DNA of 48,536 bases from an uncultured bacterium (GTDB lineage Bacteria; Hydrothermota; Tepidihabitantia; Tepidihabitantales; DTDR01): contig CALHQW010000021.1 in the NCBI GenBank assembly GCA_938040315.1, positions 1 to 48,536 on the forward strand, written 5' to 3'. Position 1 is the stretch's first letter. Every line of letters starts with the position of its first letter. The notes beneath the pieces are model-generated. The model was not told the origin of the DNA, searched no databases, and worked only from the letters and a program-made list of their open reading frames with translations. The translations under genes were made by a program, and so were the position numbers. This document shows, piece after piece, positions 1,579 through 38,531 of this stretch.

Positions 1579-2094
1579 ATGAGTAAGTTTAAAATTCCTT
1601 TATGTTTAATTATTTTAATTTCTTTTACTTATTCTCAATATCGTTGTGACTGGTGGGTAATAAGTGCTGGTGGCACAAGGATTGGTATTAATAATCTTTA
1701 TGTTTCTAGTTCAGTTGGTCAAGTTGCGATTGGTTTAATTAATATTCCTCTCTTATCTGCCCAGATTGGCTTTTGGGTTATTGATACTCCTTTTGTCGGA
1801 ATAAAAGAAAATCAATTTCAAAAATTTCCTTTAAAGACTGAACTACTACCAATTAAACCAAATCTAATTATTAAAAACACCCAAATCTATTATTCTTTAT
1901 CAAAAGAGTCTGATGTTTCTATCATTATTTATAATTTAAATGGCGAAGTGATAAATCGCCAATTTTTCCAAAGACAAAAACCCGGAATTTATTCCTTTAA
2001 TTTTCCGATAGATAAAATAGGAAAAGGAGTCTATTTCTTAAACTTTTCTGCCGGAGAATATAAAACAAAGCGAAAAATAATCCTTCTACATTAA
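1579..2094 (+). CDS. Small secreted protein with C-terminal sorting-like tail
   Basis: This 171-residue protein starts at an ATG preceded by AAGGAG, nine bases after the upstream gene, so the two are probably co-transcribed. The N-terminus is a signal peptide (KFKIPLCLIILISF, then a likely cleavage near residue 19). A small domain of about 60 residues follows (D-W-W-V-I-S-A-G-G ... V-G-Q-V-A-I-G), then a beta-rich C-terminus. That C-terminus carries Y-N-L-N-G-E-V and K-G-V-Y-F-L-N-F, the pattern of Por/type IX-like C-terminal sorting domains. Its specific function is not recognisable. It may be a partner or surface component of the preceding repeat protein. Confidence 0.65.
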   Translation: MSKFKIPLCLIILISFTYSQYRCDWWVISAGGTRIGINNLYVSSSVGQVAIGLINIPLLSAQIGFWVIDTPFVGIKENQFQKFPLKTELLPIKPNLIIKNTQIYYSLSKESDVSIIIYNLNGEVINRQFFQRQKPGIYSFNFPIDKIGKGVYFLNFSAGEYKTKRKIILLH

Positions 2095-2215: not shown

Positions 2216-2338
2216 TTTTCCTATAAGGAAACTTTTTATTTTGATAAAATTTTATATAAATGATGTAAAATTAAATATTTAACTAATTTCAGGGTTATAG
2301 ATAGGGGGCTATCTACTATACTGCCTTGGATATGCCTT
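2216..2338 (+). repeat. Dispersed 124-bp repeat, copy A
   Basis: This intergenic segment matches the reverse complement of 36807-36930 over its whole length, with about 8 substitutions and one 1-nt gap by eye. It contains three symmetric elements: TTCCT-ATA-AGGAA at its left end, a perfect 12-bp palindrome TTAAATATTTAA at 2271-2282, and AGATAG-GGGG-CTATCT near 2299-2314. It sits between the terminator of the upstream gene and the stop codon of the convergent metalloprotease gene. No coding potential is apparent. Confidence 0.85.
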
Positions 2339-30571: not shown

Positions 30572-30847
30572 GGGGTTGTGCTAAAGTGGGGGGCTGGCGG
30601 TCCCCTGTAACCTGAAACCCGCCTTAGGCAGGGCTGACAAGACAAATTGAGGGAAAAAATAATGGGTGTCTTTAATAAAAAGGAGGCGATGAAGACTGGG
30701 TCTGACAAAGGTATAACCTACAAACCCCGCCAGGGCCGGAAGGCAGCAACGGTAAGTAGGAATTATGCCGGTTGTCAGGGTGCCTGGTTGGAGCCTTCCT
30801 TTTTATTGAAGCCCCATTATTTTTTCTCGAATTTGTCGCACAACCCC
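30572..30847 (+). ncRNA. ffs: Signal recognition particle RNA, large bacterial type
   Basis: The 5' and 3' ends pair over 10 bp (GGGGTTGTGC with GCACAACCCC). The hallmark of helix 8 is present: CCAGGGCCGGAAGGCAGCAA with a GGAA tetraloop at 30738-30741. A 5' Alu-type domain (GTGCTAAAG, TGTAACC ... CCCGCC) and a long helix 5 (AAAAAATAATGGG pairing with CCCATTATTTTTT, and AATAAAAAGGAGGC with GCCTTCCTTTTTATT) make it the long form, about 276 nt. With Ffh it targets nascent membrane and secreted proteins. Placement directly upstream of dnaX matches the arrangement known in Bacillus. No clear promoter was found within the 3' end of the preceding gene. Confidence 0.93.
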
Positions 30848-36806: not shown

Positions 36807-36930
36807 AAGGCAATCTCCAAGGCGGTATAGGAGATAGCCCCCTATCTATAACCCTGAAATTAGTTAAGTACTTAATTTTACATCATTTATATAAAAATTT
36901 ATCAAAGTAAAAAGTTTCCTTATAGGAAAA
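36807..36930 (-). repeat. Dispersed 124-bp repeat, copy B
   Basis: This is the inverted partner of 2216-2338, about 93% identical by eye. The central palindrome reads TTAAGTACTTAA (36864-36875) where copy A reads TTAAATATTTAA, so both mutated positions keep the symmetry. The left-end dyad TTCCT-ATA-AGGAA and the AGATAG-GGGG-CTATCT hairpin are unchanged. It fills most of the gap between the end of the P5C dehydrogenase gene and the GT2 promoter. Confidence 0.85.
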
Positions 36931-36971
36931 TTTTGGTGGTATAAATTTATAAGTTATTTAATTTTAATATG

Positions 36972-38531
36972 TTATAATTTCTCGCTAATTGCTTTTGCTT
37001 GTAAAAAAAGTAATAGATAGTCAAAACCGCCGGCTTTGGAGTCGGTTCCGGACATATTGAAACCGCCGAAGGGATGGACGCCGACCAAGGCGCCGGTGCA
37101 TTTTCTATTAATATATAAATTACCGACAAAGAATTTATCTTTACCTTCTTTAATCTTAAATCGGTTCTTGGTATAGATTGAGCCGGTAAGTCCGTATTCG
37201 GTTGCATTAGCAAAATATATTGCCTCTTCAAAGTCCTTTGCTTTTATTACGCTTAAAACTGGTCCAAATATTTCTTCTTGGGCGATTCTCGCATCGTAAG
37301 GAACATCAATGAAGATGGTTGGTTCAATAAAAAAGCCACCCATTTCCTCTTTTAGGCCATTACCACCGTAAAAGAGTTTTCCCTCTTTTTTACCAATTTC
37401 AATATAACCTAAGATTTTATTATAGGCATTTTCATTTATTACTGGTCCTAAATAATTTTCATATTTTTCTGGGTTGCCAATTTTTATATTCTTTACTTTT
37501 TCTTTAAAATCTTCTAAGAATTTTTCGTAGATATCTTTATGGAGAATTAATCTTGAGCAGGCTGAACATTTTTGTCCTTGAAATCCGTAGGCGGAGGAGA
37601 GAACACCATTTAAAGCATCTTCCCATAATTCTTCAATCTCATTATCAATAATAATTGCATCTTTTCCGCCCATTTCGGCAATTACCCTTTTTATCCAAAT
37701 CTGACCTTTATTAATCTTGCTTGCCAGTTCATTAATTCTTAAACCAATTTCTTTTGAACCGGTAAAAGCAATAAATCTAATTTTTGGATGGGAGACTAAA
37801 TAATCGCCAATTTCTCCGCCGCTACCAGTAATAAAATTTAAAACACCCTCGGGCAAACCGGCTTCCATCATTATCTCACAGAATTTATAACCAATTAATG
37901 GTGAATCAGAGGCTGGTTTTAAAATAACCGGATTACCGCAGACAATTGCTGCGCTTGTCATTCCAGTTAAAATTGCTAAGGGAAAATTCCAAGGTGGAAT
38001 TATGGCACCAACTCCCAAAGGAAGATAACGGATTTCGTTCATTTCACCAGGTAGAGGAGTTAATTCCTGTTCTTTTTGGTATCTTAAAATCTCTCTTGCA
38101 TAAAATTCTAAGAAATCAATCGCTTCACAAACATCGGCATCGGCTTCCAGCCAATTTTTACCAACTTCATAAATAATTGTTGCTATTAATTCTTTTCTTT
38201 TTCTTCTCATTATATTTGCTGCTCTTAATAAGATACTTGCTCGCTCTTCTTTTGGTAAAGAAGAGAAAATGGGAAAAACCTGCCAACCAACTTCAATTGC
38301 CTTATCAATATCCTCTTTCTCGGCCTTGGAGAAATAACCCAAAACTTCTTTTGGATTAGAAGGATTTATTGATTTAAACTTCTTTTCTTTAAAAACTTTT
38401 TTACCATTGATAATTAAAGGATATTCCTTTTCAAAATCCTCTTTTACTTTTCTTAAAGTTTCTTCCATTTCCTTTCTATTTTTCTCAAGAGAAAAATCTA
38501 AATAGGGTTCATTTTTGAAAGGTATCAACAT
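36972..38531 (-). CDS. rocA: 1-pyrroline-5-carboxylate dehydrogenase
   Basis: This 519-residue protein is an aldehyde dehydrogenase of the P5CDH type. It has the diagnostic [10 protein letters not shown] near the N-terminus, [15 protein letters not shown], general-base E-M-G-G-K-D and catalytic Cys in Q-K-C-S-A-C-S-R. The end is [16 protein letters not shown]. It oxidises glutamate semialdehyde to glutamate with NAD+. With the ornithine aminotransferase at 43557-44744 it completes ornithine to glutamate. AGGAGG precedes the ATG. Confidence 0.9.

Follow-up and report, generated by a model that had tools for sequence, protein, structure and literature searches.

Short Interspersed Repeats with a Common Hairpin–Dyad Geometry, Possibly of Mobile Origin, in WOR-3 Bacteria

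The window analysed here, a stretch of 48,536 nucleotides, carries two copies of a repeat (2216–2338 on the + strand and 36807–36930 on the − strand) belonging to family A, which is multicopy, intergenic, modular and restricted to one genus, and to which two further families, C and E, are related by an equal geometry. The sequence-only reading that singled out this repeat had proposed a small mobile element, a dimer-binding site or an RNA; the right candidates were thus named, and we judge the balance to be about even for the first of them, namely that family A belongs to a superfamily of mobile origin in bacteria of the candidate division WOR-3, made up of short interspersed repeats that are non-coding and non-autonomous. 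The best reading of the copies is that they are old and now mostly inherited and constrained.

With these repeats, an uncultured phylum gains a superfamily of interspersed repeats. Their layout departs from the usual inverted-repeat plan: the sequence of a 5′ hairpin (H) is free but self-pairing, that of a 25-bp dyad (P) is fixed, the spacings are exact, and the tail has a period of 12 or 24 nt. Such an unusual layout makes a trans-acting partner predictable and testable.

Copies, Range and Anatomy of Family A

The two window copies, first estimated to be about 93% alike, align over their full length at 93.5% identity, with 10 substitutions and two differing end columns, and the BLAST E-value of the second copy (4.6e-48) excludes chance similarity. 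Both are intergenic and each lies 3′ of a gene on the same strand, at 1579–2094 (+) for the first copy and 36972–38531 (−) for the second. This position downstream of a co-oriented gene, pointed out from the window, is correct for the pair but does not hold for family A overall, where 14 of 22 copies have a co-oriented gene upstream (p = 0.29, no orientation bias); among the copies, no shared function or orientation of neighbour genes was found. Elsewhere in the window, at 30574–30845 (+), lies an SRP RNA; Rfam scores it with the archaeal SRP model, in a genome that is bacterial.

BLAST gave 11 matches to the element in its own genome (G000; 1.49 Mb, 40 contigs). A sequence profile built from 24 copies (R1) gave 19 matches there, 17 in the congener G001 and 28 in the congener G002, all in one genus; one has to keep in mind that these totals also count decayed copies, members of related families and echoes of the palindromes on the reverse strand, and that good family A copies, judged by score, number about 12, 5 (plus decayed ones) and about 16, respectively. 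The element had been called dispersed, and a search of the whole genome and relatives had been advised; once run, it returned these many further copies in all three genomes and confirmed the dispersion. A plain DNA search for the element found nothing in 58 other genomes, and Rfam had no match at the element.

The element is small (<200 bp), mainly intergenic, A+T-rich and non-coding, and the alignment gives its layout as an optional P1, H, a T-tract, P2, a loosely conserved spacer and a 3′ module. In the first window copy, P1 (TAAATCATTTATTTCCAATAACTTA; 2182–2206, +) is the optional upstream copy of the 25-bp dyad, present in about two-thirds of family A copies and pairing without covariation. 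H (TTTCCT-ATA-AGGAAA; 2217–2231, +) is a hairpin or dyad, followed by the T-tract TTTTTATTT (2233–2241, +), kept in almost all family A copies, and by P2 (2257–2281, +). The 3′ module opens with the G-rich AGATAG-GGGG-CTATCT (2299–2314, +), whose ATAGG at 2301 stands exactly 19 nt past P2, runs through the near-palindrome GGCTATCTACTATACTGCC (2307–2325, +) and ends, according to the alignment, with two degenerate 12-bp units (2317–2338, +); related tails have 12- and 24-nt periods. The second copy, on the − strand, has the same H at 36915–36929, P2 (TAAATGATGTAAAATTAAGTACTTA) at 36865–36889 and its 3′ module at 36807–36846, with ATAGG starting at 36845; it is preceded by a P1-like sequence (36950–36974, −) that overlaps the stop codon of an aldehyde dehydrogenase gene and that G002 retains.

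Across family A, the consensus of H is AGTTTCC-n5-GGAAACT, with a loop that varies by genome (TGTAT in G002, TATAT in G001, TATAA or TTATA in G000), and that of the 3′ module is GATAGGGGGCTATCTmCTATACnGCC followed by the two 12-bp units. An alternative 3′ module, GGGGAGCGTTCCCCCAATAGTATAGGATATGGTA, occurs at L010, L150 and L166, and at the L018/L166 locus two species carry different 3′ modules; there are also decayed copies from which H or the 3′ module has been lost. Two dyads had been described as unchanged between the window copies: one of them, H, keeps its arms (TTTCCT/AGGAAA) in nearly all family A copies, whereas the other, AGATAG/CTATCT, is complete in only 7 of 24. We rejected the frame of the 3′ module (I-G-G-Y-L-L-Y-x-L-G) as coding; it is open to the end but has no start codon, and stops lie immediately upstream in about one-third of copies.

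A separate repeat, family B, has about 35 copies in G001 (L114–L133, also L084–L113 and L134–L148). It opens with CTATACCATATACTATACTGCCCC and shares a 17-mer, found at its start, with the near-palindrome of the family A 3′ module. Stretches of 120 bases or more are identical between some copies at different loci, and about half of the copies contain a small basic ORF on the opposite strand (MANKIRKY...KLLRKMRVLDLKNLIKKKEVLGKLYIPLLKNK) with no Pfam match.

A Replaceable Hairpin at a Fixed Distance from the Dyad

Family C (G000, G001 and G002) surfaced through weak profile matches, and family E through a search of the order, in G006, a genome of another family of the same order. All three families have the geometry H–25 nt–P–19 nt–ATAGG: the end of H lies about 25 nt from the start of P in each of them, and the distance from the end of P to ATAGG is 18–19 nt in 21 of 22 family A copies (19 in most) and 19 nt in nearly all C and nearly all E copies. 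Among 147 genomes of the phylum, the pattern P–19 nt–ATAGG is found only in G000, G001, G002 and G006, with zero control matches anywhere.

At this same distance from P, the stem of H differs from family to family: GTTTCC/GGAAAC in A; TGTCCT/AGGACA (G001), TTGCAT/ATGCAA (G002) and TGGCAT/ATGCCA (G000) in C; TTATCT/AGATAA in E. The arms of these five stems pair at 6/6 positions with their own partners and at a mean of 2.6 when swapped, a comparison that is not an unbiased test, the stems having been picked by eye as hairpins. In terms of predicted pairing, it shows that H can be replaced while its arms always stay complementary, and it is in this 5′ hairpin that the covariation of the element, as read from the aligned families, probably resides. 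In several copies that are decayed or rich in AT, H escaped the automatic hairpin finder.

T5 comes after H in each of the three families, and in E the hairpin also has A5 ahead of it, as in bidirectional terminators; an intrinsic terminator or transcriptional insulator, in which H and the T-tract halt transcription between genes, would account for this. Such a function is nevertheless unlikely. H has only two or three G-C pairs, too few for H and the T-tract of the first copy to be scored as a terminator, and P and the 3′ module are left unexplained. Moreover, a terminator role alone is unlikely because the upstream genes are not preferentially co-oriented (the 14 of 22 given above) and because the first copy lies beyond a better, stronger terminator-like hairpin (2130–2154) that already belongs to its upstream gene and precedes the element.

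The tails have a strong 24-nt period in family C and periods of 12, 24 and 36 nt in family E, where the tail is about 41% C and 5% G, and family E copies look near-identical across the core at different places in G006. For about 250 nt at their ends, family E elements (G006, L211–L222) repeat with a 12-nt period and are rich in C and T but poor in G, which in composition recalls Rho-utilisation sites. The tail of family C was considered as a hydrophobic protein and rejected: the 24-nt period accounts for its open frames, the longest of about 80 residues, and Pfam has no match to them.

The P Dyad and Its Occurrence in Viral Contigs

The sequence-only reading had attributed to selection the preserved symmetry of a 12-bp palindrome that differs between the two window copies. 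The 12-mers, TTAAATATTTAA / TTAAGTACTTAA and TTCCTATAAGGAA / AGATAGGGGGCTATCT, are present in the window copies as first described, with TTAAATATTTAA contained in P2, a 25-bp dyad of consensus TAAGTnnTTn7AAnnACTTA of which the 12-mer is the right half. The 12-mer is perfectly palindromic in 2 of 24 copies, both in the window; copies have proved many and the palindrome rarely intact, the very outcome that the reading had set against itself. The enclosing dyad pairs no better than permuted sequences, with Watson–Crick pairing in 158 of 230 cells for the dyad that holds the 12-mer (at or below the permutation mean of 163) and, at inner positions, in 398 of 550 cells when the P1, P2 and family C dyads are pooled (permutation mean 401). 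A covarying 12-bp palindrome is therefore rejected, its apparent covariation being a coincidence between two close copies.

The element does hold at least one dyad under selection, as had been claimed. In the dyads of P1, P2 and family C, the letters TAA, T and TT are invariant together with their mirror partners, and the two inner positions vary freely; this symmetric conservation without inner covariation fits the DNA site of a putative protein dimer rather than a selected stem or hairpin. The P pattern occurs above control level in G002 and G006. Two further repeat families, D and F (G002 L231–L237, G001 L243; G006 L224–L228, L246, L247) carry the same P dyad with other G-rich flanks.

P also recurs outside these repeats: of 120 viral contigs that contain it (L270–L389), 36 have two or more sites, and of 120 control contigs with the reversed pattern, none do. 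Its recurrence at several sites in many unrelated viral contigs points to a widespread putative DNA-binding protein; a sigma-like gene, the candidate for a common protein, is present in one phage group (17/120) and was rejected as a general partner. In the same assembly as the window, a phage-like contig with terminase genes (L251, G000:C12:1–7000) has, at 2000–2800, several P-like dyads in one intergenic region, where GCGTAACCA and GTCAAATAACC are repeated as well; this region may serve the phage as origin or operator. From these observations one could derive the element from a phage, P being an operator or origin site carried into the chromosome, but we hold this to be very unlikely: H and the 3′ module are missing from those phages, phage and plasmid records contain nothing that matches positions 2200–2350 of the window, viral contigs nothing that matches the family A 3′ module, and four viral matches to P–19 nt–ATAGG come without the other modules.

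Orthologous Sites, Constraint and Origin

Comparison between species was possible for ten sites, and at each of these, two species or more have the element or what remains of it. Counterparts are L001/L027, L004/L026, L006/L016, L008/L030, L012–L022/L013, L019/L028 and L018/L166; L005 has its counterpart at the end of G002:C16 and L002, probably, at the end of G002:C43, the GT side of the locus being on another contig, while the counterparts of L009 are remnants in G001 and G002 that were read by eye and that escape the profile. Among comparable loci there was no clean empty site. The sites of L003, L005 and L002 are rearranged or replaced in a relative, that of L002 being occupied in G001 by a family B repeat.

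In six ortholog pairs, differences affect 9.6% of family-conserved against 39% of family-variable columns (p = 4e-22, indicative only, as related copies are not independent), and conservation is strongly uneven along the element (dispersion 5.3; 45 invariant columns against 3 expected). Differences that avoid conserved columns argue against a dead, neutrally decaying insert, unless copies were homogenised. In the tree, orthologs pair only for L008/L030 (99/94). L001 and L002, one of the within-genome pairs that are 87–92% alike, group together with support of 97/95 although L001, and probably L002 too, has a counterpart in G002, which makes copying between loci inside a genome likely from the sequences.

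The main rival is a host-functional DNA or RNA element, each copy being kept because it works in place, either as a DNA site where two hairpins stand beside a putative dimer-bound P, or as a small RNA that is structured and has a tail of 12/24-nt period. We consider it possible, if the less probable course. The constraint at orthologous copies speaks for it, as do the uneven conservation of columns, the spacings fixed across taxonomic families, the compensated H stems and the single-copy RNA folds (z from −0.9 to −3.1, with three stems in E and C copies). Gene conversion could, however, mimic such constraint; neighbour genes and their orientation are not common to the copies, no promoter-like site was found in the region of the first copy, RNAalifold on family A alone returned five pairs, none of them compensated, P lacks covariation, and there is clear loss in G001. 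A bolder version, which we think rather unlikely, would see in the whole H–P–hairpin–periodic-tail arrangement no relic but a device still at work, either an RNA or a nucleoprotein site. A protein that binds RNA, ring-shaped or multimeric, would read its G-poor tail of 12-nt period (Rho-like spacing), and P would be read by a regulator that many phages use as well.

For a mobile origin, we counted the dispersion without common gene function or orientation, the unlike H stems at the same spacing, the restriction of P–19 nt–ATAGG to 4 of 147 genomes, the lineage variants, the copying inside a genome, the near-identical look of the family E cores, the alternative 3′ modules and the decayed copies. 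Against it, terminal inverted repeats are absent (the ends, TTATAAG... / ...GCCTT, are not complementary in aligned copies), no target-site duplication was seen by eye, clean empty sites are lacking, all ten sites are shared by at least two species, and Y1 transposase (PF01797), the one transposase family searched, had 0 matches in G000 with positive controls, on which ground an IS200/IS605 or REP-RAYT origin was rejected. Under a mobile origin, a trans-acting enzyme or complex would have recognised H, as a hairpin, and P, bound by a protein dimer, at their fixed spacing, and would have spread the elements in an ancestor, each lineage then amplifying or homogenising its own variant. Most of the family A copies seen here would predate the split of the species of the genus and have been inherited vertically, some being partly overwritten from within the same genome and others decaying in some lineages.

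Comparison with Known Small Repeats

Literature searches on WOR-3 repeats and on P-like letters returned nothing relevant, and no description of the superfamily was found in them. BOX elements of pneumococcus have a modular build. BOX and RUP, like the WOR-3 element, are small interspersed repeats (PMC3049150), but RUP is thought to move via an IS630 transposase acting on its terminal repeats (PMC2229807), and such ends are absent from the WOR-3 element. REP/REPIN sequences with their RAYT are hairpin-based extragenic repeats in lineage-specific families (PMC3733652); REPs are units of 20–40 bp with a different geometry, and we do not place the element with REP/RAYT because its own genome lacks the Y1 transposase. 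With bacterial MITEs of the ERIC/Correia/RUP type it has in common that it is small, multicopy, mainly intergenic, A+T-rich and non-coding, but we do not place it in the MITE class either, since it lacks terminal repeats and no target duplication was seen.

The element is probably of the same kind as two other small interspersed repeats, by analogy of build. ERIC/IRU of enterobacteria (RU-1, 127 bp) is likewise small, intergenic, multicopy and palindromic, of similar size, with no protein and no known transposase; its TA termini, 7-bp terminal inverted repeats and target-site duplications (PMC2229807) were not found in the WOR-3 element, and the two are compared by kind and not by sequence, no sequence relation having been seen. 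CIR of Caulobacter and Brucella is also intergenic and without terminal inverted repeats, with 5′ and 3′ parts that form separate stem-loops and a site of DNA–protein interaction (PMC2229807); its motif is a putative methyltransferase site, whereas the WOR-3 element has a 25-bp dyad held at a fixed distance between two hairpins.
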